Below are positions 5,222 through 58,853 of a stretch of DNA of 59,206 nucleotides, piece by piece. Below the pieces are notes generated by a model, which worked only from the letters and a program-made list of their open reading frames with translations, did no database searches and was not told the DNA's origin. Numbering within the stretch: position 1 is the stretch's first letter; each line of letters starts with the position of its first letter. The stretch is from Chloroflexota bacterium (GTDB taxonomy: Bacteria; Chloroflexota; Anaerolineae; Anaerolineales; Villigracilaceae), in assembly GCA_016235425.1 (NCBI GenBank), contig JACRLC010000063.1, positions 1 through 59,206 on the forward strand, written 5' to 3'. Position numbers and translations under genes: made by a program.

Positions 5222-5298
5222 TCCGCTAAAATGGATTGTCCACCCCGAAGGCAATATTTCATTTAGAAAGGTGCGACGCACCCGCGCAGACAATAAAT

Positions 5299-36358: not shown

Positions 36359-36376
36359 CAGCGGAGGAGAATTTGC

Positions 36377-37893: not shown

Positions 37894-37912
37894 GTATCAT
37901 TAGGAGGTTGTC

Positions 37913-39037: not shown

Positions 39038-39053
39038 GAAAGAATAAGCCAAC

Positions 39054-40394: not shown

Positions 40395-40467
40395 TTTCAT
40401 CAAGCAAGCAACATCACTGAATTATATAGAACTCCCGAACAGTTCTTGATTTGAACAAAGATTCACT

Positions 40468-41877: not shown

Positions 41878-41990
41878 TGAATCCTATGCTGAACAATCGT
41901 ATTTCTGTTATTGCTTGGGTCACAGATAAATATAAGGTGCGGAAGGCTAATTTCAGGTTATTACGCCAGATGATTGGAACAGTGCTGTGA
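41877..41990 (+). CDS. 37-residue ORF coupled to both neighbours
   Basis: The ATG overlaps the polymerase stop (TAATG at 41875-41879), and the TGA overlaps the GTG start of the flippase gene (GTGA at 41987-41990). The product MNPMLNNRISVIAWVTDKYK... is basic and not recognised. It could be a translated coupling leader or a small protein. With no homologue known it is tentative. Confidence 0.35.
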   Translation: MNPMLNNRISVIAWVTDKYKVRKANFRLLRQMIGTVL

Positions 41991-43258
41991 GTGCCGATAC
42001 TGTCGAACGTATGAAAAGGTCGATATCCCGATTGGACTGGTCCTTGCTAAAAGGATCAGCCGTAATTACAGTCGGCATGATCTTAGCAAGGGGTGTTGGA
42101 TTTATTGTGTCATTTCTACAAGCGCGTTTCTTTGATCCCATGAATTTTGGCGTTATCCAGTACGCCGTTTCACTGGCAGGCCTATTGGCCATCGGCATGC
42201 AGCCGCTAGGACAACATGTGATTGCGCGTTATGTAGGCATGGGCAGGGACAAGCCCGAAGAACTACAGAAAACTCTGTCAAATATATGGTTTATGTTGAT
42301 AGTAGTATTTTGCGTCTCAATTTTTCTAGGCGTGCCCATTTTACTGGTCACAGGAAAATTCAATTCCGGCATTCTGGTAATTTTCTTTGGCACAAGCATT
42401 TATTATGCATATTGGGGACTAGCACGTGGTTATCTGGCCTCGAGTAGGTTAGTCATAGTGGACGTTGGCAACAATCTTATACAGGTGTTATTGATCATCT
42501 GGTTGATCGGGATACTTGGCATGAAATCCACCTTATTGGCAATGTTTATCCAGGGACTATCCTGCTTTGTCCCCCTGATATTCCTGCAATCTTTTTGGCC
42601 ACTTCCGATAATCTTCAGAAGAGAACTGATTAGCAAGGCTATTACCAAGAACATATTTAAGTTTTCAATGCCTGTCTGGCTTTCCCATGCCAGTTATATG
42701 CTTTATACGAATGTCGCGATCCTCTTTCTGGAGCACTATATGGGCAATACGACAGTGGGCATATTCTCACTTGCTGGCACCTTGAGCATCTTGTTTTCTT
42801 TTTTCCCGACCGGACTTTCTACTTACCTAATGCCAAAGATTGCCGGGGCCTCAGGCTTGCGTCATCGGGAGTTGCTTGTAAATGCATTGGGGATGGCGAT
42901 GCTGATAAACATTTCTCTTCTTGTAGTGTATTTTTTTACTGCGCCATGGCTTGTAGAAAAGTTATTTGGTCTTGAATACCTGGCAGTCCCAGGATTATTC
43001 ATCCTAATGGCAATCGTGATGACCATGAATGGGACGTACGGGATCATCACCTCTGTATTTGTAGGAAGCGGCCGTGCCCATGAGGAAACAAAAAGTCGCC
43101 TAATGATTGTTTTGGTGACTGTCATAGGTTGTTGGCTGTTGATACCCAAGTACGGCATCTTAGGGGCCGCTTGGGCGATGCTGATCGGAATTGTTAGCGG
43201 CTTCGGCGTGTATGGCTTAATTTATTTGTGGGATTACTTCCACCGAACTCGCCATTAG
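41987..43258 (+). CDS. oligosaccharide flippase (Wzx/MATE-like)
   Basis: A 423-residue protein with about twelve membrane helices that flips undecaprenyl-linked repeat units across the membrane. GSAVITVGMILARGVGFIVSFLQARFFDPMNFGVIQYAVSLAG at the start is typical of the polysaccharide biosynthesis transporter family, and a second half repeats the pattern. The GTG at 41987 overlaps the preceding ORF's stop. An ATG seven codons later is also possible. Confidence 0.9.
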   Translation: MSADTVERMKRSISRLDWSLLKGSAVITVGMILARGVGFIVSFLQARFFDPMNFGVIQYAVSLAGLLAIGMQPLGQHVIARYVGMGRDKPEELQKTLSNIWFMLIVVFCVSIFLGVPILLVTGKFNSGILVIFFGTSIYYAYWGLARGYLASSRLVIVDVGNNLIQVLLIIWLIGILGMKSTLLAMFIQGLSCFVPLIFLQSFWPLPIIFRRELISKAITKNIFKFSMPVWLSHASYMLYTNVAILFLEHYMGNTTVGIFSLAGTLSILFSFFPTGLSTYLMPKIAGASGLRHRELLVNALGMAMLINISLLVVYFFTAPWLVEKLFGLEYLAVPGLFILMAIVMTMNGTYGIITSVFVGSGRAHEETKSRLMIVLVTVIGCWLLIPKYGILGAAWAMLIGIVSGFGVYGLIYLWDYFHRTRH

Positions 43259-43406
43259 CCCAAAAAATTAGTGAATGATGTTGTTCACTCAATATTCCAG
43301 CGATGTTTAATAAGACTTCTTCCAATCAACCCTCCCTATTTTACGGGAACTGCACAAGTAATACTTTGTCTGACGAAGAAGACTATCACACATAAAGGAT
43401 AAACGC

Positions 43407-44474
43407 ATGATCCTTAAATCATTCATTCGCAAGCTCGGCCTGGAAAAGGAAATAAAAACTGCCATTATTAATTGTGGAAAATGGGGGGAAGATTTCGTCC
43501 ATCTTTACAAGAAACCCGATCCCACGAATAGTATTCTACTTGCAGGATCGGGAAGAAGTGGAACTACTTGGCTAGCCGGCCTTATTTGTGGTTCAAGAAA
43601 AGGTGTACAAGAAATATTTGAACCGATCCATCCAACTATCAGCGCAGAGATCAGAAAACTGACAGGATTTGATGAGAAAGATCCATATGTACGGTCCCTT
43701 TACCTAAGACCACACGAGTCATATCCTCAATGGGAGGATTTGTGGCACAGAATATTAACCGGTGGATTTCGGAATTATTGGACAGACTATCATGAGCGCT
43801 GGTCTTATTTCCCAAGCATCTACCTAGTTAAGGAAATTCGAGCCAATTTGATGCTGGGATATATAGATCTGAACTTTAAACCCAAAATTGTGTTTATTAT
43901 CCGACATCCCTGTGCTGTGATCTATTCCCGTATCAAGAAAGTTCAAAAAGTGTGGCAAGCATCCATACGGGATATCCTTAAACAGGAAGACCTCGTTCAC
44001 GATCACCTTCTACCCTGGGTAGCTGATATCGAACATGAAAGTGATCTGGTTGGAGCTCATGCGGTTTGGTGGGCCATTGAAAATTATATTGCCCAAAAAC
44101 AGTTATCGAATAGCAGGTACTTTTTCCTGACATATGAAGATCTGTCAATGAATCCGGTCGAGGAATTAACCAGATTATTCATGTTCTTGGATGCTAAAAA
44201 AGTAAATATATCTCAAAGATTAATAGATAAGCCAAGCCGGTTGTCAAGTAACAAGGGAAAAATGGAAAGGGATGTTGTCAAGAGGCTCGGATCCTGGAAA
44301 GGTGGTTTTGATGAAAAAACGCAATTCAGGATTTTGGATTGGGCACAAAAATTTGGCATAACACTCTACAACGAACATACATTACCAAGAAATGGCACTT
44401 CTTTGAACAATGGATATCTTCAAAAAACGAATAGCGATTTACGCTTTATCAATTCAGGTGCAATACGCGACTAA
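43407..44474 (+). CDS. PAPS-dependent sulfotransferase
   Basis: A 355-residue sulfotransferase. The 5'-phosphosulfate loop GSGRSGTTWL is near 47-56, and the 3'-phosphate motif KIVFIIRHPCAVIYSRI is near 157-172. The remainder fits the Sulfotransfer_1/3 fold. It would put sulfate from PAPS on a sugar or tyrosine hydroxyl; in this locus a sugar is likely. AAGGA precedes the ATG. No PAPS synthesis genes lie in the window. Confidence 0.88.
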   Translation: MILKSFIRKLGLEKEIKTAIINCGKWGEDFVHLYKKPDPTNSILLAGSGRSGTTWLAGLICGSRKGVQEIFEPIHPTISAEIRKLTGFDEKDPYVRSLYLRPHESYPQWEDLWHRILTGGFRNYWTDYHERWSYFPSIYLVKEIRANLMLGYIDLNFKPKIVFIIRHPCAVIYSRIKKVQKVWQASIRDILKQEDLVHDHLLPWVADIEHESDLVGAHAVWWAIENYIAQKQLSNSRYFFLTYEDLSMNPVEELTRLFMFLDAKKVNISQRLIDKPSRLSSNKGKMERDVVKRLGSWKGGFDEKTQFRILDWAQKFGITLYNEHTLPRNGTSLNNGYLQKTNSDLRFINSGAIRD

Positions 44475-44605
44475 CACGATAAATGATTTAGAAAAAATTC
44501 AAGATGGTTGAACAACATATTAGCAATTTTGGGAATGACCATGCACGATTTGCATCGCGCTATTCCCCCAGACGAGCCCTACTAGACTTAAAGGTATCGA
44601 TCTAA

Positions 44606-44806
44606 CAGTGGTTACACAAGAGAATGGATTACCGAATGGCAAAAAAAGATAGAACCCCTCACATGGTCATATTATCACTGTCAATGAATCATTTCCCCGG
44701 GTTACAAGTATGTGAGGTCCCATTGCACCAAGAAAAATCATCCGGTTTTATTACTGCGCTAGTCAACGCAACAATGATTTCGGAAGGCAGAGGTGCTCAT
44801 GAGTAA
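44606..44806 (+). pseudogene. unrecognised short frame, possible gene remnant
   Basis: An open frame containing ATG 44624 runs to TAA 44804-44806, overlapping the next gene's ATG (ATGAGTAA). The product has NHFPGLQVCEVPLHQEKSSG, which vaguely resembles the end of a family 2 glycosyltransferase. Upstream in all frames there are stops. Coupled stop and start suggest the end of a former gene. The stretch 44475-44605 holds nothing else recognisable. Confidence 0.3.
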
Positions 44807-45785
44807 CCCCCCCAAGATTGTAGCCATTGCGTGGGCACCATACCAGGATCATGTCGAGAAATATGCCAACCAATTGGGCGCTCAACTTTACAACGTGCAT
44901 TACTTTTCATTTCAAAATCCAGCACTGGCTCCTATAAAATATGTCCCACAAACCCTTCGAACTTGGCTAATCCTTATGCGTGAACATCCGACCGCGGTGT
45001 ACATTCTGAATCCCCCCGTATTTGCTCCTTTGGTGGTCTGGGCATATTGCGTATTTTCAGGAGCTAAGATCCTAATGGATACGCACTACTCCGCATTGTA
45101 TGGCACAAAATGGAAATGGCTTCTACCAGTTACGCGCTTCCTGGCAAAACGCGCAATTATTAACATCGTTGATCAGGAACGCAATAAACGATTGTTAAAT
45201 TCGTGGAATGCTGAAGCGATTGTTCTCGAAAAACCCCCATATCAGGAATTTGACACCGCGAGAAGGGATGTAACCAGGGATAGATTCAACATTGTAGTTA
45301 TCAATACTTTTGCCGAGGATGACCCAGTTGAAATTATTCTTGAAGCAGCAACTTTGTGTGCCGACATCGACTGGTATATCCTCGGCGACCCAAAACGCGC
45401 CCGGCAGAGTTTACTCACCCGAGTTTCAAAAAACGTAACGTTCACGGGGTATCTACTGAAAGAGGATTATTGGAATTGCCTCTTTCCTGCAAACGCAGTT
45501 ATGGCTTTGACGACGCGTGAATATTCCTTGATGGCTGGTGCAATAGACGGCCTCTCTATTGACAAACCATTGATTTTGTCACGGCAACCGACTTTGGAAG
45601 AATACTTTACCAAGGGTGTTGTTTTTGTTGATAATGAAGCTAAAAGCATTGCTCGCGGGGTAAGAGAATTTCAGAAGTTGGAAAAACGGCTGATTGGCGA
45701 AATTGCCTCTTTGCACAATGAGAAACGTATCAAATGGGAAAAAGCGTTTGCGTACCTGCAAAACGTTGTTGCCCAAAAGTCATAA
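44799..45785 (+). CDS. glycosyltransferase, GT-B fold
   Basis: A 328-residue protein with the N- and C-terminal Rossmann-like halves of GT-B enzymes: KIVAIAWAPYQDHVEKYANQLG near the start, AKILMDTHYSALYG in the middle and NIVVINTFAEDDPVEIILEAA, then VTFTGYLLKEDYWNCLFPANAVMALTTREYSLMAGAIDGLSIDKPLILS. Acceptor and donor are unknown. The ATG at 44799 has GGCAGAGGTG upstream. Confidence 0.8.
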   Translation: MSNPPKIVAIAWAPYQDHVEKYANQLGAQLYNVHYFSFQNPALAPIKYVPQTLRTWLILMREHPTAVYILNPPVFAPLVVWAYCVFSGAKILMDTHYSALYGTKWKWLLPVTRFLAKRAIINIVDQERNKRLLNSWNAEAIVLEKPPYQEFDTARRDVTRDRFNIVVINTFAEDDPVEIILEAATLCADIDWYILGDPKRARQSLLTRVSKNVTFTGYLLKEDYWNCLFPANAVMALTTREYSLMAGAIDGLSIDKPLILSRQPTLEEYFTKGVVFVDNEAKSIARGVREFQKLEKRLIGEIASLHNEKRIKWEKAFAYLQNVVAQKS

Positions 45786-45797
45786 AGACGACATACC

Positions 45798-47045
45798 ATG
45801 AATATGAAACCTTATTCTCACAACCAAAATTCAAGAAGCACGCTCATAATCATAGAGAATTCATCATTTCTCTGCGATCCTCGCGTTCAAAATGAAGCGT
45901 TTTCTCTACGGGATGCAGGGTGGAATGTGTCTGTGTTATGTCCTTTATTTAAAGAATATGAAGGGGATAATGTCACTTCTGCTAATTTCTGGCATCAACA
46001 CAACAGAGAAGGTATCTTTGTCTACTATTATCCTTCATCTTATAGGGGAGATGGATTTTTCTCTTACCTTATTGAATACCTAGCAGCTTTCTATTGGATT
46101 GCCTTGCGCTCATGGCACATTTGGCTCAAGACCCATTTCAAAGTCATCCATTTGTGTAATCCTCCAGATATTTTCTTTCCGATTGCTTTTATTTATCGCT
46201 TGCTTGGCGTCAGAGTACTCTTTGACCACCATGATCTTTTCCCGGAATTGATTTTAGTAAGATTCCATGGACTGAGAGGAAAGATGCTCTACTGGTTCAG
46301 CCGGCTTGTGGAGTTCTGGACCTTTCGCGTGGCCCACATGGTTATTACAACCAATCGCTCCTTCCAGCAAATAGCTGAGACAAGAGGAATGTATCCATCT
46401 GAACGCATATTCAACGTCAGAAATGGGCCCCGGCTGGCAGAATTTGTTCCCTTAGCACCTGAACCAGCTTTGAAGTGTGGGTTTGCCAAGATGGTGGTAT
46501 ACGCGGGCGTCATGGGTTATCAAGATGGCGTTTTGGAATATCTCGAATCAATTCGTTATCTTATCCAGGATCAAAATCGTCGCGATATTCTGTTTGTCCT
46601 ACTCGGAGATGGTGCAGTGCGATCCATTGCCTGTGAACACGTAAAGGCTTGGAAGACGGATTGCGTTCAACTACCAGGAATGATCCGCGACAAGCATCTT
46701 CTACGTCAGTATCTTTCTACAGCAGATATCCTTGTCGCACCTGAACCATATAACGAACTCAATGAGCATTCGACTTTCATCAAGGTTGCAGAATATATGG
46801 CTATGGGAAAACCCATCATCGCCTATGATCTCAAAGAGACCCGTTATACCGCACAAGAATCTGCTCTTTATGTACCGCATGATGACGTGAATGCTTTTGC
46901 AGAGGCAATTCTGAAACTGGTTGATCAGCCCGAGTTATGCACCAAACTTACGAATTTTGCAAAAAAAAGAATTGCAGAAGTATCCTGGGAGAGCCAGCAA
47001 CCGCTTCTTCTCTCTGCTTATGAGGCAGCGTTGCGAATCAAATAA
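45798..47045 (+). CDS. glycosyltransferase family 4
   Basis: A 415-residue GT-B enzyme. SFLCDPRVQNEAFSLRDAGWNVSVLCP is a classic GT4 start. HLCNPPDIFFPIAFIYRLLGVRVLFDHHDLFPE follows, and the C-terminal half has VVYAGVMGYQDGV and EHSTFIKVAEYMAMGKPIIAYDLKE, with the donor-binding E-x7-E pattern shifted. It adds a sugar to the growing repeat unit. The gap to the previous gene is 12 bases. The 47046-47309 gap after it is AT-rich without a gene. Confidence 0.9.
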   Translation: MNMKPYSHNQNSRSTLIIIENSSFLCDPRVQNEAFSLRDAGWNVSVLCPLFKEYEGDNVTSANFWHQHNREGIFVYYYPSSYRGDGFFSYLIEYLAAFYWIALRSWHIWLKTHFKVIHLCNPPDIFFPIAFIYRLLGVRVLFDHHDLFPELILVRFHGLRGKMLYWFSRLVEFWTFRVAHMVITTNRSFQQIAETRGMYPSERIFNVRNGPRLAEFVPLAPEPALKCGFAKMVVYAGVMGYQDGVLEYLESIRYLIQDQNRRDILFVLLGDGAVRSIACEHVKAWKTDCVQLPGMIRDKHLLRQYLSTADILVAPEPYNELNEHSTFIKVAEYMAMGKPIIAYDLKETRYTAQESALYVPHDDVNAFAEAILKLVDQPELCTKLTNFAKKRIAEVSWESQQPLLLSAYEAALRIK

Positions 47046-47309: not shown

Positions 47310-48545
47310 ATGACAAACCTTTGGAGTTCCAACCACCCACGAAATTTCTGGCTTTGCCAGCCGGACTTGCCGGATGAAGTATGGCAGGAAGCAATTTTCC
47401 GCGCTCTGCCGCTTCTGGGTTTGAACGACACTGTGTTGGATGTCGACTCACTATTGGAATTTACTCTTGGTGAGAGGCAATTTGGTCCTAACCATCACCA
47501 TCTCGGCTTTGTTCTTAACCTATACTATATGCTTAAACCACTTCTGCCAAAATCCTTCACATGGCCAATGCGCCGTTTATTTAGCACTATAAACAAGAAG
47601 GAATATCTGAAGTGGCCAATTGAGCCTCGTTTCGCGCAATTCCAGTGGGAAATCCTTCGTCAAGCTTTGCTAATTTCCAAAAAACAAGAAATTGCATTTC
47701 AGCATTTCTGGCCAGAAGCCAAGAGATTTGCCTTTGTACTCACACACGACATTGAGTCAGCCGAAGGTCAACATCTGGCACCTGTGTTAGCTGATTTGGA
47801 GGAGTCCCTAGGATTCTCCTCATCGTTTAATTTTGTACCTGAACGATACCCGCTGGATTTAGGATTGATTAAGGATTTACAGCAACGCGGCTTTGAAATT
47901 GGTGTGCATGGGTTGAAACATGACGGCAGGTTGTTTTGTACATACACCAGCTTTTCTAAACGTGCGATTCAAATTAATCGTTATTTGCATAAGTTTCGGG
48001 CTGTGGGCTTCCGCTCGCCATATACTCATCGCAACCCGGAATGGATGCAACTATTAAACCTGGAATATGATTTGTCGTTTTTCGATACCGATCCTTATGA
48101 ACCGATGCCGGGTGGCGTAATGAGCATTTGGCCGTTTCGTGCAGGCCGCTTTCTCGAATTGCCTTATACCCTGCCACAGGATTCAACACTATTCAACGTC
48201 TTGGGCGAAACTTCTCCCCAGATCTGGTTGGAGAAAACTACTTTTATCAGAAAATATTATGGAATGGCATTGATGCTCGTGCATCCCGATTACTCAGCCA
48301 GTGGGATGGCAAGGCAGTGTTATGCAGCATTTTTGCAGGAGATGAAAGCACGTGGAGAATATTGGCACGCAATACCGTGCCAGGTGGCTTCCTGGTGGAA
48401 AACGCGCATTCTTTCGAGCAATATTGACGGCATCGCATCCCTGATGGCACATGCGACATTGACAGAAGATAGTATCAATATCAAGAACTCACTTGAGCTT
48501 GACAATTTTTCATCACAAGCTAATCCTGCTCTGTACTTACCATAA
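47310..48545 (+). CDS. polysaccharide deacetylase family protein (CE4-like)
   Basis: A 411-residue protein with a NodB-like core: LTHDIES with D147, then IGVHGLKHDGRLF with H200 and H204 as the metal-binding set, and GFRSPYTHRNPEWM. About 120 residues precede the core. No signal peptide is visible, so it may act in the cytoplasm on a lipid-linked or nucleotide sugar, or be a non-classical member. AAGGTG precedes the ATG. Confidence 0.8.
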   Translation: MTNLWSSNHPRNFWLCQPDLPDEVWQEAIFRALPLLGLNDTVLDVDSLLEFTLGERQFGPNHHHLGFVLNLYYMLKPLLPKSFTWPMRRLFSTINKKEYLKWPIEPRFAQFQWEILRQALLISKKQEIAFQHFWPEAKRFAFVLTHDIESAEGQHLAPVLADLEESLGFSSSFNFVPERYPLDLGLIKDLQQRGFEIGVHGLKHDGRLFCTYTSFSKRAIQINRYLHKFRAVGFRSPYTHRNPEWMQLLNLEYDLSFFDTDPYEPMPGGVMSIWPFRAGRFLELPYTLPQDSTLFNVLGETSPQIWLEKTTFIRKYYGMALMLVHPDYSASGMARQCYAAFLQEMKARGEYWHAIPCQVASWWKTRILSSNIDGIASLMAHATLTEDSINIKNSLELDNFSSQANPALYLP

Positions 48546-49523: not shown

Positions 49524-50198
49524 ATGCTCGAAAATATCATGGTGATCTATCATCAGATCCGCGAAGCCTGGACAGGGGGGAGCTTGAGGGATATTTTTCG
49601 CCCACGGGTTTTCCGACAGAGAGTAGCAACGCCGGTGGAGATGGATCTCTCAGGTACTATCCCCCACCCGGCAGACTTTCTTCAAGGTTCTGACTATCGG
49701 TTCGTTGAACTCAAAATGGATGAACTCCGCGCTGGGAAATGGTCTTTTGCGGTATCCAGTCGTCGATTCAAGGTTCACCGCAATCTCAAAAAGGGATTGC
49801 GTAATTTTGCTCTTGTTAAAGATTCCACTGTGGTGGGTGATGTCTGGTGTGCCAGCCCGCATAAGGACGGGAACCCCGTCACCCATCCCGATCTCAAAAT
49901 GCTTGGAATCAGTTGCGGAGAGAAGGAAGTTTACGCTTTCGACATGCTCATTGATCCCATATATCGCGGGAAAAACTTTGCGGTCTTGCTCCAGCGTTTT
50001 TTACACTTCACCTTGAAGATGGAGGGATTTCGGAAGGTCTACGGCTTCTATTGGGACGACAACCTTCCCGCGCTTTGGATGCACCGCATGCTCAAGTATA
50101 AAGAACTGCCAAAGAGGCGCGTGTCTCGTTTCTTTTTCCTCAAAAGCATGGAAAATGCTATCAAGCCTGATTCTTCAATCAAAGTATTTGATTCATAA
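49524..50198 (+). CDS. GNAT-like acyltransferase
   Basis: A 224-residue protein. The C-terminal 120 residues have the GNAT look: KEVYAFDMLIDPIYRGKNFAVLLQRFLHFTLK, where R-G-K-N-F resembles the acyl-CoA pyrophosphate loop, and VYGFYWDDNLPALWMHRMLKY. The first 90 residues are not recognised. The ATG at 49524 is chosen because AAGGAG lies 10 bases upstream. It precedes the acyl carrier protein gene and might use carrier-bound acyl groups. Confidence 0.65.
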   Translation: MLENIMVIYHQIREAWTGGSLRDIFRPRVFRQRVATPVEMDLSGTIPHPADFLQGSDYRFVELKMDELRAGKWSFAVSSRRFKVHRNLKKGLRNFALVKDSTVVGDVWCASPHKDGNPVTHPDLKMLGISCGEKEVYAFDMLIDPIYRGKNFAVLLQRFLHFTLKMEGFRKVYGFYWDDNLPALWMHRMLKYKELPKRRVSRFFFLKSMENAIKPDSSIKVFDS

Positions 50199-50338: not shown

Positions 50339-50587
50339 GTGAACACATGCAACACCATTCGCGATTTCATCACCCACGAAATGCTTCATGATTCCTTGAA
50401 AACCCCGCTGGGCGATGATGATCAGCTTGTCGATTCGGGAATTATCGACTCGTTGGGAGTCATGAACTTGTTGAGCTTCCTTGAGGAGAAATTCTCCATT
50501 CAGATACCCGACGATGACCTCATCCCGGAGAACTTCGCATCTTTATCCACTATCACCGCTCTCGTCGAACGCCAGATGGCCAGGTAA
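50339..50587 (+). CDS. acyl/peptidyl carrier protein
   Basis: An 82-residue free-standing carrier. The phosphopantetheine serine is S38 in the motif GIIDSLGVMNLLSFLEE, with the usual acidic helix 2 after it and the VERQM end. The length is typical of dedicated carriers of adenylating ligases. AAGGAGG lies just before the GTG start. The next gene starts 13 bases downstream, which suggests one operon with the dehydrogenase and ligase. Confidence 0.93.
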   Translation: MNTCNTIRDFITHEMLHDSLKTPLGDDDQLVDSGIIDSLGVMNLLSFLEEKFSIQIPDDDLIPENFASLSTITALVERQMAR

Positions 50588-50600
50588 GGAGAAGGGACCA

Positions 50601-51746
50601 ATGAATTTCGCCTTCACTGAAGAACAGCAGAAAATCCGCAACACCATCATCGACTTTGCTCGCCAAGAACTCAACCCGGGGATTATAGAACGGGATCGAG
50701 CAGGCGTCTTTCCGCGAGATCTTTGGGTAAAGTGTGCAGAAATGCGGCTTATGGCCCTTCCTTTCCCCGAAGCACATGGAGGAGATGGATTCGACTTCGT
50801 TACCACGGTGGCAGTCTTTCATGCCCTGGGATATGCTTGTAAAGATTCTGGACTTATTCTCTCGCTCGCAACCCAGGTAATCTGTGGACTTACAATCCAA
50901 CTCTCAGGGAATCAGGAGCAGGCCGCCTGTCTTCTTCCTGACCTCGCGTCAGGTACGCTCATCTATGCGCAAGGCATTACGGAACCAGACTCAGGCTCAG
51001 ATACATTTGCCATGCGGACAACCGCAACCAAGAAGGACGGCGGGTACATTCTCAACGGCACCAAGACCATGATTAGCAATGGTCCGGTTACGGATCGGGC
51101 ACTGATATATGCAGTGACCAATCCGACAAAAAAGACGCTGGCACGAATCTCTTGCTTCCTCGTCCCCAAGGGGAATCCGGGATTCTCCGCAGGAAATCCG
51201 ATGGAGAAGATGGGACTTCGCACCATGACCAACGGGGAACTGGTCTGCACAGATTGTTATGTCCCCGGCCCTTCTTTGGTGGGTCGGGAAGGTCAGGGAG
51301 TAATCCTCTTCAGCGAAGTCGTGGAATGGGAACGGGTTTTGATTTGCGCAGGTTTGCTAGGAGGATTGGAACGGGTTTTGGAGGATTGCATCCGATACGC
51401 GAAAGAACGCAAGGCTTTCGGTCAGTCCATTGGAACCTTTCAAGCCATCTCCCACAAGATAGCAACTATGAGGATGAATGTGGAATTGGGAAGACTCGCA
51501 CTATATAGTGCCGCAATTCTGAAAAATAAACGGAAGCGCGCCGCACTGGAATCTTCTGTTGCCAAGTTTTTTATCAGCGAGAGTCTCAAGCAAGCCTGCC
51601 TCGATGCTGTACAAATCCGTGGCGGTTACGGGTATATGTCGGAATTCGAGGTAGAACGCGATCTTCGTGACAGCATAGCCGCCACGATCTACTCGGGTAC
51701 ATCAGAGATGCAGGCCAACACTATCGCCCGCCTTGCAGGTTTGTAA
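50601..51746 (+). CDS. acyl-CoA-dehydrogenase-like flavoprotein, possibly aminoacyl-carrier dehydrogenase
   Basis: A 381-residue member of the acyl-CoA dehydrogenase family. FTEEQQKIRNTIIDFARQEL, AQGITEPDSGSD (FAD-binding loop), KTMISNGPVTDRALIYA, RKAFGQSIGTFQAISHKIA and the end RDSIAATIYSGTSEMQ are present. The canonical base in the IYEGTS position is Ser here, but E244 in VVEWERVL lies at the alternative helix-G site used by isovaleryl-CoA dehydrogenase and the prolyl-carrier oxidases. With the carrier upstream and AMP ligase downstream it resembles enzymes that oxidise prolyl-S-carrier to pyrrolyl-2-carboxyl-S-carrier. This substrate is inferred. AAGGAGAAGGG precedes the ATG at 50601. Confidence 0.85.
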   Translation: MNFAFTEEQQKIRNTIIDFARQELNPGIIERDRAGVFPRDLWVKCAEMRLMALPFPEAHGGDGFDFVTTVAVFHALGYACKDSGLILSLATQVICGLTIQLSGNQEQAACLLPDLASGTLIYAQGITEPDSGSDTFAMRTTATKKDGGYILNGTKTMISNGPVTDRALIYAVTNPTKKTLARISCFLVPKGNPGFSAGNPMEKMGLRTMTNGELVCTDCYVPGPSLVGREGQGVILFSEVVEWERVLICAGLLGGLERVLEDCIRYAKERKAFGQSIGTFQAISHKIATMRMNVELGRLALYSAAILKNKRKRAALESSVAKFFISESLKQACLDAVQIRGGYGYMSEFEVERDLRDSIAATIYSGTSEMQANTIARLAGL

Positions 51747-51871
51747 GCCAATGAGAAAACTCTCTTTCATAGGTACCTCGACCACACTAGGATCACATAC
51801 CTAGAAAACGGCCATAACCAACAAGCACATTGCCATTGATATCCCTAAAAAGGATAGAGAAGGAGATCATA

Positions 51872-53452
51872 ATGGCCTTCCTTTTACATCATCTTTTGTC
51901 TGAAAGTGCATCTAAATATCCGGATAGAGAGGCGATATCATTCAAAGGTCGCACTATCACGTATGCCGAATTAGAAAGAGAGTCAAACAAACTAGCCCAT
52001 ACACTCGTAGCACTCGGAATAGTGAAGGGAGACCGTGTAGGACTCTATTTCGACAGAGGTATCGAATCAATTATCTCAGCCTGTGGGGTCTTGAAGGCGG
52101 GAGCAATCTATGTCCCCATAGATCCATCGAGTCCTTTGAGGCGGGCCATTTATATAATAGAAAAATGTGGCATAAAATCATTGCTTTCCACCCAGGAAAA
52201 ACTGACGAAGATAGTGGAGGCATTTCCTGAAAATTCACCACTCGAACGCATTATTCTGATGGATAAAAACGATCAATATTCCGGGTCAATAGGATCAACC
52301 CAATTGATCAATGGTTACTCTGTATTGCGTGAAGTTGGGGGAAATGTCCCTGTCGTGAGTGTCATAGATTCTGACATAGCCTACATTTTATTTACTTCCG
52401 GCTCGACGGGAAATCCTAAAGGGGTGGTGATATCACACCTGAACTCCATAACATTCGTGAATTCCGCTTGTGATTTTTTCCACATAGAAAAGGAAGATAG
52501 ATTTTCTAACATTGCTCCCTTGCATTTTGATATGTCGATCTTCGATATATTCGTCGCATTCAAAGCTGGAGCTTGTGTAGTGATCATTCCTGAGACTATT
52601 GCCATTTTCCCAGCAAAACTGGCTCAATATATTTCAGAAAAGAAGATATCGGTATGGAATTCTGTTCCCTCTGCGCTTTCTCTTTTGGCAACATATAAGA
52701 ACCTTGTTACTTGCGACTTGTCAAGTTTGCGATTGATTCTATTCGCCGGGGAATTATTCCCGTTGAAATATTTACGATTTCTTCGGGAAGTTATACCCGG
52801 AGCAAGATTCTGCAATATGTATGGTCAAACAGAGGCAAATTCTTCAACCTATTATTGGGTTGACCAGTTGCCTACAGATGACAGAGAAATGCTTCCCATC
52901 GGCAGGGCACTCCCGAATTTCGAAGTCTTCGCTTTGGATGAAAATGGCAATTATGTTGATACTCCTGAACACGAGGGCGAGCTATATGTAAGGGCATCGA
53001 CAGTTGCGTCGGGTTATTGGAATGAACCCCAAAAAACAGAAAACTCCTTTGTAAAAAATCCTCTTCGCCCCGACCTACATGAAAGAGTCTACAAGACAGG
53101 CGATTTAGTCCGCCGAGATTCCAACGGCAACTATGTGTTCTTGGGCCGAAAAGACCATATGATCAAGAGTCGGGGCTATAGGATCGAGATTGGAGAGATT
53201 GAAACAGTTTTATGCAACCACCCGGAAATCAAAAACGCCGTTGTCATCCCAATTCCTGACGAACTCATAGGGAATAGGATTTCAGCGATCGTCGTTCCGT
53301 TTACGCCAGGCAAAATCACAAAAGACGACATCTTGAAACATTGTTTTGCGCAATTGCCAAAATACATGGTACCTGAGGTTGTCGAACTCCGTGATTCTGT
53401 GCCCATGACTTCATCTGGAAAGATTGATAGAAAGAAGTTGAGTGACTCATGA
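51872..53452 (+). CDS. amino-acid-type AMP ligase (adenylation enzyme)
   Basis: A 526-residue stand-alone adenylation enzyme. Core A3 LFTSGSTGNPKG (173-184), A4 region APLHFDMSIFDIF with D220 (an Asp at the position that binds the alpha-amino group in amino-acid adenylation domains), A5 NMYGQTEAN, A7 YKTGDLVRRD, A8 GRKDHMIKSRGYRIEIGEIE and A10 SSGKIDRKKL with K517 are all present. It looks like PltF/RedM/DltA-type enzymes that load a carrier protein with an amino acid, rather than a fatty acyl-CoA ligase. The substrate cannot be read by eye. GAAGGAG precedes the ATG; the stop overlaps the next gene. Confidence 0.88.
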   Translation: MAFLLHHLLSESASKYPDREAISFKGRTITYAELERESNKLAHTLVALGIVKGDRVGLYFDRGIESIISACGVLKAGAIYVPIDPSSPLRRAIYIIEKCGIKSLLSTQEKLTKIVEAFPENSPLERIILMDKNDQYSGSIGSTQLINGYSVLREVGGNVPVVSVIDSDIAYILFTSGSTGNPKGVVISHLNSITFVNSACDFFHIEKEDRFSNIAPLHFDMSIFDIFVAFKAGACVVIIPETIAIFPAKLAQYISEKKISVWNSVPSALSLLATYKNLVTCDLSSLRLILFAGELFPLKYLRFLREVIPGARFCNMYGQTEANSSTYYWVDQLPTDDREMLPIGRALPNFEVFALDENGNYVDTPEHEGELYVRASTVASGYWNEPQKTENSFVKNPLRPDLHERVYKTGDLVRRDSNGNYVFLGRKDHMIKSRGYRIEIGEIETVLCNHPEIKNAVVIPIPDELIGNRISAIVVPFTPGKITKDDILKHCFAQLPKYMVPEVVELRDSVPMTSSGKIDRKKLSDS

Positions 53453-54636
53453 TAAACATATCCATACCAAAACTCATCAAAAATGAATGGCGCTATGAAT
53501 CTGGAAAGCCTTATGCTAACGCCAAGATCCTTAGTCATGACATCCATCCCGAAGGGTTAGATGTCGATCGGATTCGTTTTTTCGAGGTTGGAAGCCTCAT
53601 ACCGAATTCGAATGTTGGTCACATCATCAGTGTTCTTCAAGGCAGCGGACAGCTATACCTGGCAGGCAACAATAAACAACCACTTCACCTAGTTGCAGGA
53701 GTTCACCTCTATCTTCCACCTGGCCTGGAGAGTGTTCTTGACGCTGATTCGGGGACTGAACTTCTGCGCGTTTCGTGTACATCAGCCTCGCAGGCGCGTG
53801 GAAAGCAACTATTGCTCCGTGATGAAATGTTTCTCGCAGCCTGTGCTACAGCGCCTCAATCGTTGCGGTGGATACTCACACCCCAGTATTTAAGCCGTCG
53901 AATTTTCCTGCACCATGATCCGATCCTTCTGTCGAAATCCGGAAACCCAGTATCCTGGTTTCGCACCACGATGTTCGACGTGGCCGGTCTTCCCAAAAAC
54001 GAGGATGGGGAGTCGGTGTTCAAGATGTCCTACAATTCCCGAACTGAGTTCAACGTCTGTTACGATGTGAAAGGAACCACCCGCGTTCGTATGGCACAAC
54101 ATCCGTATAAAGGGACGAAACAACTCTGGAGCCAATGGTTCCCGCTTGATGGAGACTCAACATACCACTTAAACGAAGCCGCAGGAGGGGCCGAAGAAGA
54201 GTGTCGTTTCGACGAGGTAACCCAGACCCAACAATTCCTTCGCAATAAGCACGAAGTTTATATACACAATGGACATGTGACACTTTTCTGTTTATTTGAT
54301 CCGGCATCAACAGGCATTGAGCGTCATCGACCAGGCGAGTATAGCGACTACGAACCTCTGTCGCAAGTGTTAGGAACCAAACTGTACGAATCTTACAAGC
54401 GAGAGATCGTTAGATACGATGAGATGGCAGATCGGCTTTCCCTGGCCAAGGCGATGGGCAAGTTGAGCACATTTCAGGGAACTTCGATTTGGAAACTTTA
54501 CTTACAAGGCAGAGATGCTCAAGTATGCATCGAAACCGAACTTGCAAAAACCCTTACTATGGAAGGCAACCAACGCGAGCGAATTCTTGCGGACTGGATG
54601 CAACCCGCCGTAATTGATGAGCGGTCGTTTGCATAA
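53449..54636 (+). CDS. unrecognised cupin-like protein
   Basis: A 395-residue protein that I do not recognise. The stretch GHIISVLQGSGQLYLAG, HLVAGVHLYLPPGLESVL (about residues 60-105) has the turn pattern of a cupin barrel, and a second barrel-like part is possible at about 200-290 (STYHLNEAAGGAEEE). No classical HxH metal motif is clear. Its ATG overlaps the ligase stop (ATGA), so translation is coupled to the ligase and the product probably works in the same pathway. The 54637-54888 gap after it holds no gene. Confidence 0.5.
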   Translation: MINISIPKLIKNEWRYESGKPYANAKILSHDIHPEGLDVDRIRFFEVGSLIPNSNVGHIISVLQGSGQLYLAGNNKQPLHLVAGVHLYLPPGLESVLDADSGTELLRVSCTSASQARGKQLLLRDEMFLAACATAPQSLRWILTPQYLSRRIFLHHDPILLSKSGNPVSWFRTTMFDVAGLPKNEDGESVFKMSYNSRTEFNVCYDVKGTTRVRMAQHPYKGTKQLWSQWFPLDGDSTYHLNEAAGGAEEECRFDEVTQTQQFLRNKHEVYIHNGHVTLFCLFDPASTGIERHRPGEYSDYEPLSQVLGTKLYESYKREIVRYDEMADRLSLAKAMGKLSTFQGTSIWKLYLQGRDAQVCIETELAKTLTMEGNQRERILADWMQPAVIDERSFA

Positions 54637-54888
54637 GGTGACTCACTTCCTCCAATTTCTCTCTATGGTTCAAGGAAAGGTTTTTATCTTATGAAAAGAC
54701 GCCTCCGCGAGGAAATCCTGCAGGATTACTCAAAAGCAAATGAATATCCCAATTTTAGATCCCATTGACCTATCTTCCTTATAGCATGGACGCTCAGTAT
54801 CGGATGAAGATATCACCATCGTAATCCCACATCCATATATTAGATTATCGTTTAACCCATTCTACTCAATTAGGATTTCAAATCAATT

Positions 54889-55911
54889 ATGACCCAATTA
54901 AACGATCCTTTTAGCCAAGATTGGATAGATTTTATCAATAGCAACGCCGGAGCGACTATTTTCCATCACCCGGCCTGGTTGCGCTTATTGGTTGAATGTT
55001 ATGCTTATCAACCGTTTGTTCTTGGCTTGCGCGATGAAAATGATAAATATAGGGCAGGTATACCAATGATGGAGATAAAAAGCCCCATTACCGGCAGAAG
55101 ATGGGTATCGTTGCCATTTTCAGATTTCTGCTCTCCATTGTTTGAAAATGATAGTGATCATGGACAAATAATCGAGAGCTTACTCTCACTGGCGAAAGTT
55201 GAACACATTCACAGCGTTGAACTCCGCGGGGCATATTCAGACAACCCTGCTCTTATTACGGAATCAGACTATGTTTTCCACGAGCTTGATTTGGAGCCGG
55301 ATAATGAAAAAGTATTTGCCCGCATGCATGAGATGCATCGCCGCAACATCAAAACTGCTCGTCTGAAAGGTGTCCAGATTGTCCGGGGCGATACATCTGA
55401 ACACCTAAGAGAGTATTACAACCTGCATCTGCAAACTCGGCGTCGCCAGGGTGTTCCCATTCAACCGTGGAAATTCTTCGCTGCATTAAGAAAACTTTTT
55501 GAACAAGGCCTGGGCTTTGTTTTGTTAGCCTACGATAATCAGCGTTGCATCGCAGGTGCCATCTTCTTGCATTGGCAAAAAACATTGACATACAAGTATG
55601 GTGCTTCTCTTTCTGATGACCTTCAGGTTCGCCCCAACAATCTGATAATGTGGACCGCAATACAATGGGGCTGCAATAACGGATTCAACAAGTTGGACTT
55701 GGGTAGAACTACTCTTTCAAATGAAGGTCTCCGAGCATTCAAGAGCCGTTGGGGTGCGCGCGAATATTGTTTGCCCTACACGTATCTTGTTCCACATGCA
55801 AAGAAGGTTTACACCGGCAAACTCACGGCACTTTTAAGTATGCTTATTAGAAATTCTCCGCCCTGGTTTTGCCGAATCTCAGGCGAATTGCTTTATAAGC
55901 ATTTTGGATAA
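54889..55911 (+). CDS. FemAB/GNAT-like acyltransferase
   Basis: A 340-residue protein with two GNAT-like halves, as in FemAB and BioF2-type acetyltransferases. GATIFHHPAWLRLLVECY at the start, MHEMHRRNIKTARLKGVQIVRG, EYYNLHLQTRRRQGVPIQPWKFF, and NLIMWTAIQWGCNNGFNKLDLGRT with AFKSRWGA at the end are typical. Relatives transfer amino acids from aminoacyl-tRNA to peptidoglycan precursors, or act in polysaccharide clusters. With a carrier and an amino-acid-type ligase nearby, it may transfer a carrier-bound group to the glycan; this is inferred. Confidence 0.8.
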   Translation: MTQLNDPFSQDWIDFINSNAGATIFHHPAWLRLLVECYAYQPFVLGLRDENDKYRAGIPMMEIKSPITGRRWVSLPFSDFCSPLFENDSDHGQIIESLLSLAKVEHIHSVELRGAYSDNPALITESDYVFHELDLEPDNEKVFARMHEMHRRNIKTARLKGVQIVRGDTSEHLREYYNLHLQTRRRQGVPIQPWKFFAALRKLFEQGLGFVLLAYDNQRCIAGAIFLHWQKTLTYKYGASLSDDLQVRPNNLIMWTAIQWGCNNGFNKLDLGRTTLSNEGLRAFKSRWGAREYCLPYTYLVPHAKKVYTGKLTALLSMLIRNSPPWFCRISGELLYKHFG

Positions 55912-56219
55912 AGTTAAATTCAATGGTTACTGATGCAGTAAGTACCCAGTGAATAATGCGTATTCATTTTCATGATGTCTTTCATATTCTGGTCACTGAT
56001 GTGATCCAAAGGAGGTGAAGGAAAATTGGTTCTGTGGGTTTGGTGGGTAAATTCTCTTTGTACACAGATTTTAAGTTTTTTTTGTGAAATCTGGGTAATT
56101 CGTGTCCCCACTCCCACTTGATACCAGAGAGCTGAAAATAAAAACCAAACCACTTTGAGGCTATCCCTGCTGGTGGGAAATTGATCATCCTCCAGCTCTA
56201 TCCACTAATAAGGAGAAAC
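55912..56219 (+). other. gene-free region before the SLH gene
   Basis: About 308 bases without a gene. It holds a weak inverted repeat (CAGATTT at 56065 with AAATCTG at 56087) and ends in the TAAGGAG ribosome binding site of the SLH gene. A promoter may lie here but no clear pair of boxes was found. Confidence 0.4.
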
Positions 56220-58853
56220 ATGAACACAAAATCTAGTATATCTTTTTGGGCTCGGACAATAGTCGCAGTCTTTGTGATTGTAATGCTAATCCTTCCAGTG
56301 ACGCCGGCCTATGCTGCCGGAGCAGTTGCCCCACTGGATGAATGGCCGACGACCCCTCAAATGATAGCAACCACTGGAAACCTGTCCGGGGCTTTTGCAA
56401 TTTCAAGTGGCACAAACCGGTTGCTGGTGGTGCTGGTCTCCAGTTACAATAGTGGCGGCTCAGGCGGACAAACATTCAGCGCTACTTATGGCGGAAAACC
56501 CCTAACCGGAGCATTTCTCGAAAACTCTAACAGACTTACAACCTGGATCGCCTACCTAAAGGAAACGGATATCGCCGATCGCGCTGGGGACGCAGTAGCG
56601 GTTACGGTTACTGGGCCCCATACAAATGTGGTCGGCTACATCGCCAGTTACAGTGGGGTAGACCAAACCACACCAATCACAGGTGCCAATGGCGTATACA
56701 TCCCCAACGTAAACAACCGACCTATTGGTGGACCGCTCACCGTGAACGCGGGTGGATACGGCATTTACGGTTGGTCGGGTAGTTCTGGGATCACACGTAC
56801 CAGCGATACCGAAACTTATACCGAGCATAGCGATTACACTGCTGTGGGTTACAATTCGGGCATAGCATCCAAGGCTTTTGCCTCCGCATTCAGCAGCGAT
56901 CCATCGGTCACATGGTCGGCAAATAACCGCGTGTCAGTTTCGTTTGTCACGCTCAATCCAGCCAGCACAACTGCCACCACACTGGCTGTTACTGCGGCCA
57001 CTGGCACGTATGGTGGCACGGTCAACCTGATTGCCGCCCTATCACCCGCAGTAGCCGATAAACTGATCAACTTCACGCTCAACGGTGTTCCGGTCGGCAC
57101 CGCTACAACCAATAGCAGCGGCATCGCAAACATTCCTGCCGCCGACCTGACTGGCATCAATACCGGCACATATCCCAGTGGTGTGGGCGCCAGCTTTGCA
57201 GGCGATGGTACCCACGACGCGAGTAGTGGTACGGCCAGCCTGACAATTAATCCCAAAGCCTTGACCATCACTGCCAGCGACGCCAGCAAGACCTACGGTG
57301 ACACCCAAACCTTCGCCGGAACTGAGTTCACCACCTCCGCACTGATCAGCGGCGACTCTGTTGACAGCGTAACCCTCACCAGCACGGGAGCAGTTTCAAC
57401 CGCGGCAGTGAGTAACTACGACATCGTGCCTAGCGCCGCATCCGGCACAGGCTTGGGCAACTACAATATCACCTATGCCAACGGTACGCTGACGGTTAAT
57501 CCCAAAGCCTTGACCATCACTGCCAGCGATGCCAGCAAGACCTACGGTGATACCCAAACCTTCGCCGGGACTGAGTTCACCACCTCCGCATTGATCAGCG
57601 GCGACTCTGTTGACAGCGTAACCCTCACCAGCACAGGCGCAGTTTCAACCGCGGCAGTGGGTAACTACAACATCGTACCTAGCGCCGCATCCGGCACAGG
57701 CCTGAGTAACTACAATATCACCTATGCCAACGGTACGCTGACGGTTAACAAAGCCAGCCTAACAGTGACGGCTGATATTCAGACCATCAACACCGGTGAT
57801 CCCGATCCGGTCTTCACTTTCTCCTATGGTGGCTTCGTTAGCGGCGATGATGGAACTGTCATTGACACCCCACCCACCTGCAATGTGCCTGTTGCGCACA
57901 ACACTCCAGGCACATATGATATCGTTTGCACAGGCGGTATTGACAATAACTACAACTTTACTTACGTCAACGGCACGCTGATCGTCTCCGCCGTCAACTC
58001 TCCCCCGACCGACATCAGCCTCTCCAACTCTTCTGTGAATGAGAACCAACCGGTCGGCACTGTTATCGGCACGCTTACCACTACCGACATGGACACAGGC
58101 GACACTTTCACCTACGCCTTCTGCGGCGGCACGGACGATGCATCCTTTAGCATCGAAATCGGTGTTCTTAAGACAGCGGCCACATTCGACTACGAGACAA
58201 AGAACGGTTACAGTATCTGCATCCGCTCTACAGACAACGGTGCCTCGAGTACGAACAAAACGTTCGCCATCACGGTCAACAACCTGATCGACACAACAAC
58301 CTTTGCCGATGTCTCGACCAACTACTGGGCCTGGCAGTACATTGAATCCATCTATTCAGCCGGCATTACCGCCGGTTGCGGTACCTCTCCGCTCATCTAC
58401 TGCCCAACTGCCCCGGTCACGCGCGCCCAGATGGCCGTCTTCATTTTACGCGGCATTCATGGCGGCGCTTACACCCCCCCGACGCCCACTGGCAATATCT
58501 TCGCCGACGTGCCGGACAGCTATTGGGCAGCGGCTTGGATCGAGCAATTAGCCGCGGAGGGAATCACAGCTGGCTGTGGCGGTAGCAATTACTGCCCCGA
58601 TCAAGCCGCCACACGCGACCAAATGGCCGTCTTTCTTTTGCGCGCTAAACACGGCAGTGCCTATACACCTCCGACGCCCACTGGCACAGTCTTTAGCGAT
58701 GTGCCAGACTCATACTGGGCGGCTAGTTGGATTGAGCAATTAGCCGCGGAGGGAATCACAGGTGGCTGTGGTGGAACTAACTATTGTCCCGCTAGTACGG
58801 TCACTCGTGATCAGATGGCTGTTTTTTTGGTAAAGACGTTTAGCCTTCCATAA
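56220..58853 (+). CDS. secreted S-layer-homology protein with MBG and cadherin-like repeats
   Basis: An 877-residue cell-surface protein. A signal peptide (about 1-33, ending near AYA-AG) starts it, and an unrecognised beta-rich region follows (about 35-250). After an Ig-like domain at about 255-340 come three MBG-type beta domains, the first two (345-427 and 428-510) nearly identical. A cadherin-like domain is at about 595-690, and three SLH repeats end the protein (about 695-755, 762-815, 822-877; for example YWAWQYIESIYSAGITAGCG, TRAQMAVFILR). Each SLH repeat has a Cys pair. SLH domains bind wall glycans, so this protein could be anchored by the polysaccharide of this locus. GGAG precedes the ATG. 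Confidence 0.92.
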   Translation: MNTKSSISFWARTIVAVFVIVMLILPVTPAYAAGAVAPLDEWPTTPQMIATTGNLSGAFAISSGTNRLLVVLVSSYNSGGSGGQTFSATYGGKPLTGAFLENSNRLTTWIAYLKETDIADRAGDAVAVTVTGPHTNVVGYIASYSGVDQTTPITGANGVYIPNVNNRPIGGPLTVNAGGYGIYGWSGSSGITRTSDTETYTEHSDYTAVGYNSGIASKAFASAFSSDPSVTWSANNRVSVSFVTLNPASTTATTLAVTAATGTYGGTVNLIAALSPAVADKLINFTLNGVPVGTATTNSSGIANIPAADLTGINTGTYPSGVGASFAGDGTHDASSGTASLTINPKALTITASDASKTYGDTQTFAGTEFTTSALISGDSVDSVTLTSTGAVSTAAVSNYDIVPSAASGTGLGNYNITYANGTLTVNPKALTITASDASKTYGDTQTFAGTEFTTSALISGDSVDSVTLTSTGAVSTAAVGNYNIVPSAASGTGLSNYNITYANGTLTVNKASLTVTADIQTINTGDPDPVFTFSYGGFVSGDDGTVIDTPPTCNVPVAHNTPGTYDIVCTGGIDNNYNFTYVNGTLIVSAVNSPPTDISLSNSSVNENQPVGTVIGTLTTTDMDTGDTFTYAFCGGTDDASFSIEIGVLKTAATFDYETKNGYSICIRSTDNGASSTNKTFAITVNNLIDTTTFADVSTNYWAWQYIESIYSAGITAGCGTSPLIYCPTAPVTRAQMAVFILRGIHGGAYTPPTPTGNIFADVPDSYWAAAWIEQLAAEGITAGCGGSNYCPDQAATRDQMAVFLLRAKHGSAYTPPTPTGTVFSDVPDSYWAASWIEQLAAEGITGGCGGTNYCPASTVTRDQMAVFLVKTFSLP
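57252..57749 (+). repeat. 249-bp tandem duplication inside the SLH gene
   Basis: Units 57252-57500 and 57501-57749 are nearly identical and each encodes one 83-residue MBG domain. They differ at only a few positions, mostly silent. A third, diverged unit follows. Confidence 0.95.

Follow-up and report, generated by a model that had tools for sequence, protein, structure and literature searches.

A stretch of 59,206 nucleotides from a Chloroflexota bacterium (GenBank assembly GCA_016235425.1, contig JACRLC010000063.1; hereafter the window) carries six genes beside a polysaccharide locus that, in our reading, form a modular cassette: a carrier-borne aminoacyl group, derived here from an amino acid other than proline, would be converted into an uncommon acyl substituent of a surface glycan. 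Judging from the sequence, we put the probability of this reading at roughly 0.55. The six open reading frames (ORFs), all on the + strand, were verified on the ORF list, and those of the ligase and the cupin-like protein share a 4-base ATGA overlap.

49524-50198, + strand: GNAT-like transferase, candidate acyltransferase, with no direct family match.
50339-50587, + strand: free carrier protein, phosphopantetheine Ser38 in DSLG (PF00550, 32.8 bits).
50601-51746, + strand: acyl-CoA-dehydrogenase-family flavoprotein of the prolyl-carrier dehydrogenase type (Acyl-CoA_dh N/M/1).
51872-53452, + strand: stand-alone ligase of the amino-acid adenylating type; its pocket code reads DMFNLAMSSK (AMP-binding and AMP-binding C-terminal domains).
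53449-54636, + strand: two-cupin protein, with an N-terminal cupin (~25-110), an ectoine-synthase-like domain (~121-306) and C-terminal helices.
54889-55911, + strand: FemAB-like transferase, candidate aminoacyl or acyl transferase (PF13480, Acetyltransf_6, and PF02388, FemAB, above cut-off).

Coordinates, strand, overlap and families (ORF list, Pfam and NCBIfam) bear out the six-gene arrangement beside polysaccharide genes proposed in an earlier interpretation of the letters alone (the sequence-only reading). The arrangement recurs elsewhere. In a one-genome-per-species collection, a pattern-based ligase scan, which detects no more than close relatives, returned 15 loci; identity is 69-74% in four of them and 22-30% in eleven. 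The four close loci are L021 and L029 (Geobacter sp.), L022 (Chloroflexi bacterium) and L023 (Deltaproteobacteria bacterium); L023 and L029 are seen only in part, their contigs beginning inside the ligase, and in all four the ligase has the cupin protein next to it. Searches for the cupin protein detected it in one of 61 related genomes and one of 301 genomes of the phylum, the window's own both times, and in nine of 277 Geobacter-class genomes (eight strong matches and one marginal, E 8e-4, which was dropped). This makes ten cupin loci including the window, the nine others 64-73% identical in the cupin protein and eight of them in the Geobacter class. The cupin gene adjoins the ligase gene in all ten, the nine other ligases being 50-74% identical to the window's, and the arrangement is therefore more than chance. 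The core of carrier, dehydrogenase, ligase and cupin is present in eight of the ten, L023 and L029 being the other two. The co-occurrence in other genomes, whose lack the sequence-only reading had named as a refutation, is thus seen, in glycan loci where these were examined.

The window ligase scored 382.7 bits against the amino-acid adenylation model TIGR01733, above its cut-off of 317.4 (NCBIfam), while it did not pass either of two DltA models (293.7 bits, cut-off 476; 281.9 bits, cut-off 559.85) or the exosortase-A-associated model TIGR03098, ligase_PEP_1 (379.7 bits, cut-off 592). Asp235, which in amino-acid adenylating enzymes binds the alpha-amino group, and Lys517 are kept in every coded ligase row. 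We class the window ligase as an amino-acid adenylating enzyme, in agreement with the sequence-only reading, and the other refuting outcome named there, a firm clustering with fatty-acyl ligases, did not occur either. These results also bear on a lipid-type alternative, in which an exosortase-A-associated acyl ligase and an ordinary acyl-ACP dehydrogenase would modify a sugar-borne short fatty acyl chain. The 380 bits against TIGR03098 and the resemblance of the FemAB-like protein to TIGR03019 (XrtA-associated FemAB; 129.7 bits, cut-off 260 not reached) would fit it, but the former score is far below its cut-off while the amino-acid adenylation model exceeds its own, Asp235 is retained throughout the coded rows, and exosortase TIGR02602 has no match in the window genome (G000; 109 contigs, 99.57% complete). 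We consider it very unlikely. Membership in TIGR03098, Dlt and TIGR03019 is excluded by the cut-offs.

The three core proteins are kin to prolyl-carrier systems, to which the carrier and dehydrogenase come closest, a kinship the sequence-only reading had already claimed. Among single-domain PDB entries, the L-proline ligase 6o6e_B matches the ligase best (308 bits); ranked above it are a multi-domain gramicidin synthase (better domain 235 bits) and a 1634-residue synthetase. For the dehydrogenase, the best PDB match is the prolyl-ACP dehydrogenase 4irn (313 bits vs 257 for the runner-up), with Glu242 in VEWER aligned to the EWER motif of 4irn, and the best NCBIfam models are PigA (332 bits, cut-off 500) and RedW (306 bits, cut-off 650), both under their cut-offs. 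The carrier is closest to the AmcB model of NCBIfam (58.5 bits, cut-off 80) and, in the PDB, to the peptidyl carrier 2my5, from whose alignment Ser38 was assigned.

The binding pocket of the ligase departs from this kinship. PltF reads DLLYLALVC in the alignment to 6o6e_B, Lys517 lying outside the aligned stretch, and the window code DMFNLAMSSK differs from the proline code DL[LF]YLALVCK; the changes from PltF include Y278N, V330S and C331S. In the window's own class, a ligase matched at E 1e-100 in 14 of 249 genomes (15 matches including the window's). Nine of the 14 other ligases read DLFYLALVCK, one DLLYLALVCK, one DLLYNALVCK and three D(M/Q)FY(L/T)GVQCK, so that 11 of 14 have the PltF-type proline code. 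In the Geobacter class, where 30 of 277 genomes have a ligase match, position 278 is Asn in 28 and Lys in two. Among the cupin loci, the code is DMFNLAMSSK in the window, L021, L023 and L060, DMFNLAMTSK in L022 and DLFNHSISSK in L061-L064. When nine cupin-linked and 19 cupin-less rows (L091-L109) were compared with the 11 proline-code rows, leaving out L085, L086 and the three GVQCK rows, Asn278, Gln325, Ala328 and Ser331 were found in 28/28 vs Tyr, Pro, Thr and Cys in 11/11. A tree of 46 ligases, from which seven duplicate rows had been removed beforehand, separates 30 Asn278 rows from the proline-code rows (Shimodaira-Hasegawa-like approximate likelihood-ratio test 88, not starred). On the grounds of code, pocket and tree, we take the window ligase to be kin of the proline ligases with a changed, more polar pocket; it no longer looks proline-specific. 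The nearest known codes, among them alanine-like, cysteine-like and proline ones, are too weak a guide and were not used to name a substrate.

These data weigh directly on the original form of the idea, in which proline would be loaded, oxidised to a pyrrole-2-carboxyl-carrier and the pyrrole placed on the glycan. The dehydrogenase and carrier lie nearest to prolyl systems and related ligases of the window's class do have the PltF-type code; against this, N278, S330 and S331 replace Y, V and C in the window ligase, N278 and S331 recur in all nine cupin-linked and 19 cupin-less rows compared, and neither a cupin nor an arginase-family enzyme is known to take part in the route from proline to pyrrole. 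We regard it as quite unlikely and, given the ligase code, rejected pyrrole at the window locus. An oxidised aminoacyl group on a sugar remains the best reading, as the sequence-only reading had it; the pyrrole or proline form of that claim is unsupported by the code.

In the 46-row tree, the cupin-linked ligases fall into two groups, five with the DMFN code and four with the DLFNH code, the latter sitting among cupin-less relatives; the cupin thus joined, or was exchanged, more than once. A single clade of cupin-linked ligases, seen in a 23-row tree (100/99) that lacked the cupin-less Geobacter-class relatives, was lost in the larger tree, which is the one used here. That the cupin became linked to ligase lineages twice, independently, leaves the proposal of a glycan-directed aminoacyl cassette no weaker.

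The two-cupin protein may indicate the kind of chemistry involved. Neither Pfam nor NCBIfam matches it at E 0.001, and it is as unrecognised as the sequence-only reading had described it, and long invariant stretches are kept among its ten orthologues. Weak matches to the Pfam ectoine synthase family PF06339 (E 0.04-0.3) were obtained for four of four orthologues tested, at 12.8 (window), 14.4, 14.5 and 11.8 bits, none reaching the gathering score of 27. Profile-profile alignment (hhalign) with seven ectoine synthases matched residues 121-306 of the cupin protein to the whole enzyme, with a score of 37.8 and E 5e-5 as a single comparison, the best of 60 column-shuffled controls scoring 20.0. 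In this run, the setting that governs how far the printed alignment extends was looser than the default; with six less well trimmed ectoine synthases, a previous run at the default gave an equal score (E 3e-4). A search of the PDB by sequence with the cupin profile returned chance-level matches (best E 0.064).

The roles of ectoine synthase (EctC) residues were taken from the excerpted text of PMC6344544, and its residue numbers were mapped onto the aligned rows by eye. Ser23, Arg25, Thr40, Tyr84, Cys104 and Phe106 of EctC align with Ser149, Arg151, Thr173, Tyr239, Cys281 and Phe283, which are invariant in the orthologues, and all of these except Ser23 are aligned in both hhalign and MAFFT. 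Tyr84, an iron ligand, falls on Tyr239 in both alignments; for Glu57, whose placement is uncertain, a Y(X)4E motif is matched by Tyr195 and Glu200 of the cupin protein. Trp21 aligns with Tyr147. Asn38, which holds the substrate carboxylate according to the same excerpt of PMC6344544, aligns with Phe171 (Tyr in some orthologues), so the cupin protein may not bind a free carboxylate. Ectoine synthase also turns glutamine, at very low efficiency, into the five-membered cyclic amidine ADPC, as stated in the excerpted parts of PMC6344544 and PMC5924519. A true ectoine route was considered and rejected, as EctA has no match above cut-off in the ten cupin genomes (EctB was not searched); three of the ten have weak EctA matches below the cut-off. 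In a fold search, the full-length structure model resembles cupins generally, with EctC entries ranking 22nd, 32nd and 46th among the top 50. The domain model, whose input alignment included EctC rows and whose EctC match is therefore not independent, has EctC 5by5 first (Z 8.2, root-mean-square deviation 3.0, 102 aligned), tied with other cupins. The models support a predicted cupin fold and no more.

A second line of evidence comes from loci without the cupin. Among 23 cupin-less Geobacter-class ligase matches, 16 regions (L118-L133) were examined. In 13 of these an arginase-family protein lies in the cassette (L119:8718-9743; relatives in L120-L130 and L133), two have an amidohydrolase, and in L118, which is cut by a contig end, neither was seen; Pfam was run on four of the 13 and on both amidohydrolases. 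The arginase-family protein and the cupin never occur together in these 13 loci and the ten cupin loci. The L119 enzyme has no orthologue in the ten cupin genomes, with remote 25-30% matches in two, and the same search recovered 70-100% identity in three of three genomes of the arginase-family type. These enzymes are nearest to the agmatinase-2 and formimidoylglutamase types; in L119, L121, L123 and L124, Cys replaces the first Asp of the DxD motif, and the enzyme is atypical, perhaps with one metal. As the DLFNHSISSK-type code is common to the cupin loci L061-L064 and to most arginase-family loci, the cupin and the arginase-family enzyme probably serve the same ligase substrate. L121 also holds relatives of the window GNAT, deacetylase-like and FemAB-like proteins, and the window thus resembles an L121-like locus in which the cupin replaces the arginase-family gene. 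The amidohydrolase-2 proteins (L131:805-1914 and L132:7312-8421) go with the ligase code DMFKLGVGSK.

Proline-code loci have a partner of their own, a halogenase-like flavoprotein present in ten of 11 (all but L044) and in none of the three GVQCK loci. Three of three tested match PF04820 (Trp_halogenase) above cut-off; their scores against the CmlS halogenase model, however, stay far below its cut-off, and they may instead be flavin oxygenases of another kind. In L040, L041, L043 and L044 a proline-code ligase and carrier occur, mostly with a dehydrogenase and halogenase-like flavoprotein, and membrane-acyltransferase-like genes adjoin the cassette (Pfam on one, L041), together with glycosyltransferases in L040, L041 and L044. 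These four loci are candidates for (halo)pyrrole glycan decoration, and the pyrrole-on-glycan idea fits the proline-code loci better than the window.

Altogether, we propose the following route for the window. The ligase would adenylate a non-proline alpha-amino acid and load it onto the carrier phosphopantetheine, and the dehydrogenase would oxidise the bound aminoacyl group at C-alpha/C-beta. The two-cupin protein would carry out an ectoine-synthase-like, iron-dependent step at a C-N bond, either ring closure to, or hydrolysis of, an amide or amidine; its substrate would be the free amino acid, ahead of loading, or the carrier-bound form. The product would then be moved onto an amino sugar by the GNAT protein, the FemAB-like protein or both, and Wzx/Wzy-type machinery would export and polymerise the glycan. 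An amide or amidine C-N step is probable, and the candidate substrates are amino acids whose side chain bears an amide or amidine, resembling glutamine, arginine or an N-acyl-diamino acid. We infer the substrate, order of steps, transferase, acceptor and metal, as we do amino-acid loading, dehydrogenation on the carrier, the cupin step and transfer to an amino sugar. A more specific scheme is possible, though doubtful: in a modular, type-II-NRPS-like cassette, one core of carrier, ligase and prolyl-type dehydrogenase might be combined with exchangeable tailoring enzymes according to ligase-code group, the halogenase-like flavoprotein with the proline code (halopyrrole), the amidohydrolase with DMFKLGVGSK and the arginase-family or two-cupin enzyme with DxFN codes. 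The window cupin would then close a side-chain amide to a cyclic, proline-like amidine, which the dehydrogenase would oxidise, possibly to an aromatic ring, before transfer to the amino sugar.

At E 0.001 the window GNAT-like protein is matched by neither Pfam nor NCBIfam; its relatives in L121 and L124 match PF00583 above cut-off (two of two tested). Of the 16 cupin-less regions, 12 hold relatives at 30-43% identity; the nine other cupin loci hold none, and hhalign found nothing between the window GNAT and either the Geobacter double GNAT or the L022 GNAT, nor between the window FemAB-like protein and that of L022. Relatives of the window FemAB-like protein occur in L121 (40% over 156 residues) and in L060 and L130 (25-26%). 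The L060 FemAB-like protein reaches 390.7 bits against TIGR03019, and exosortase A, EpsI and XrtA-FemAB in L060 and an XrtA deacetylase in L061 are above cut-off. A DesI-like 4-amino-sugar aminotransferase lies near the ligase in L021, L022, L029, L060, L118 and L119 (70-82% alike); the sole one profiled, from L022, scored 570 bits (cut-off 650). A NeuD-like hexapeptide protein is also present in five of the six cupin loci with a double GNAT.

This gene content also bears on a different destination for the product, namely a small diffusible metabolite whose cassette is merely encoded beside the polysaccharide locus. Trios accompanied by extra adenylation domains in large ORFs resembling non-ribosomal peptide synthetases (L043, L045, L046 and L049) and an FkbH-domain gene in L022 would suit such a product, for which it also speaks that no structure ties the product to a sugar; however, glycan genes are found by profile in the window, L060, L061 and L121 (one marginal glycosyltransferase), those of L062-L064 being recognised from their similarity to L061, neither the window stretch nor any other cupin locus gave a match to a second adenylation-domain gene, and the DesI-like amino-sugar gene is repeatedly nearby. 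We hold a diffusible product to be rather unlikely.

Several observations weigh against the proposal of a glycan-directed, cupin-dependent cassette. In the EctC alignment, the iron ligand Glu57 falls on Asn202 in hhalign, two residues from Glu200, and His92 is placed on His268 in hhalign, whereas MAFFT shifts it by three residues. The quality of the two structure models is poor (predicted local distance difference test 52 for the full-length protein and 59 for the domain). The window dehydrogenase sits on a long branch (0.96), apart from those of the other cupin loci. The transferase varies, with a double GNAT in six cupin loci (L021 and L060-L064), and the double-GNAT and NeuD-like proteins show no detectable relation to the window GNAT. 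No DesI-like aminotransferase adjoins the window set, the best in the genome being 35% identical. The restriction of the cupin protein, among the 301 phylum genomes, to the window's own also counts here; the window copy may be a recent import. Finally, the FkbH-domain gene of L022 adjoins the carrier and is of a type familiar from polyketide pathways.

That FkbH-domain protein (L022:2869-4707; 303 bits, cut-off 146.65) lies directly ahead of the carrier and is possibly a second carrier-loading activity. Electron-transfer-flavoprotein genes are found beside the cassette in L060 (10837-12567, after the cupin), L129 and L130, with an Fe-S protein in L129, which suggests a path by which electrons could leave the dehydrogenase.

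Upstream of the six genes the window contains the following:

35528-47045, + strand: polysaccharide locus (Pfam).
47310-48545, + strand: polysaccharide-deacetylase-like protein, a weak assignment (DUF2334 / Polysacc_deac_1, E 0.013-0.016, under cut-off).

By Pfam, the polysaccharide locus encodes a sugar-phosphate transferase (Bac_transf), Gfo/Idh dehydrogenase, hexapeptide acyltransferase, DegT aminotransferase, Wzz/ATPase, Wzy-like protein, Wzx, sulfotransferase and two glycosyltransferases; the Wzy_C match (28.3 bits) and that of the glycosyltransferase at 44793 (22.8 bits) are both under cut-off. The DegT protein at 37913 scored 186 bits against the DesI model (cut-off 650) and 267 against PseC (cut-off 423). 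The sulfotransferase-family gene occupies 43407-44474, and the window glycan is possibly sulfated. The deacetylase-like protein is 40% identical over 312 residues to proteins directly before the carrier in L121 and L122, the two loci with relatives among 25 related loci searched. Directly after the FemAB-like gene, 56181-58853 encodes a large, secreted-looking repeat protein whose C-terminal repeats resemble, by eye, S-layer-homology repeats; the large protein encoded ahead of the ligase in L021 is another one, with Ig/cadherin-like domains. A short proline--tRNA ligase-like protein of 429 amino acids, below the cut-offs of the models matched, is encoded at 5236-6525.

In a literature search judged by title and abstract opening, no description of this gene set in a glycan locus was recognised, nor one of its combination with the altered code and the ectoine-synthase-like two-cupin protein. 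An Acinetobacter cluster is said to hold a ligase, carrier and dehydrogenase as well. If our proposal is true, aminoacyl chemistry of the prodigiosin, pyoluteorin and anatoxin type also builds polysaccharide substituents in environmental bacteria, among them relatives of Geobacter, a group with a surface matrix that draws interest in connection with electron transfer. The proposal would also assign a role to a protein family that so far lacks a name and has an ectoine-synthase-like domain, provide a lead to EctC-like chemistry beyond ectoine synthesis and predict new acyl sugars detectable by mass spectrometry.

Every protein type of the cassette comes from a known superfamily, and known systems offer parallels for its parts. 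In marginolactone biosynthesis, the amidinohydrolase DstH hydrolyses an amidine in the service of a thioester-built product (PMC4737276, excerpt), which the arginase-family enzyme found in the sister loci may parallel; the DstH product is a polyketide and not a glycan, and the sister-locus enzyme has Cys for the first DxD Asp. The flagellin viosamine island of Pseudomonas syringae, as presented in the excerpted text of PMC3927599, is a precedent for a carrier-built acyl group on a 4-amino sugar, the carrier and its enzymes being proposed to build that group for the amino group of a 4-amino-4,6-dideoxy sugar; a ketoacyl synthase and a reductase supply the acyl group there, in place of the adenylated amino acid and dehydrogenase proposed for the window. 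The second cupin domain aligns over the entire EctC with several active-site residues kept, but the window protein is under the Pfam cut-off, is fused to an N-terminal cupin and helices, and has insertions. In D-alanylation, DltA and DltC, an amino-acid ligase and a free carrier, likewise serve a cell-surface polymer, whereas the window ligase is under the DltA cut-offs and the window adds a dehydrogenase and a cupin. The closest likeness is to the prolyl-carrier trios, such as PltF/PltE/PltL, PigI/PigA/PigG and the anatoxin enzymes. The core probably works like these trios, with a stand-alone adenylating ligase, a free carrier and an acyl-CoA-dehydrogenase-type flavoprotein whose Glu aligns with the EWER motif; it differs in its code, DMFNLAMSSK vs DLLYLALVC(K) of PltF, in the added two-cupin protein and in its place within a glycan locus.

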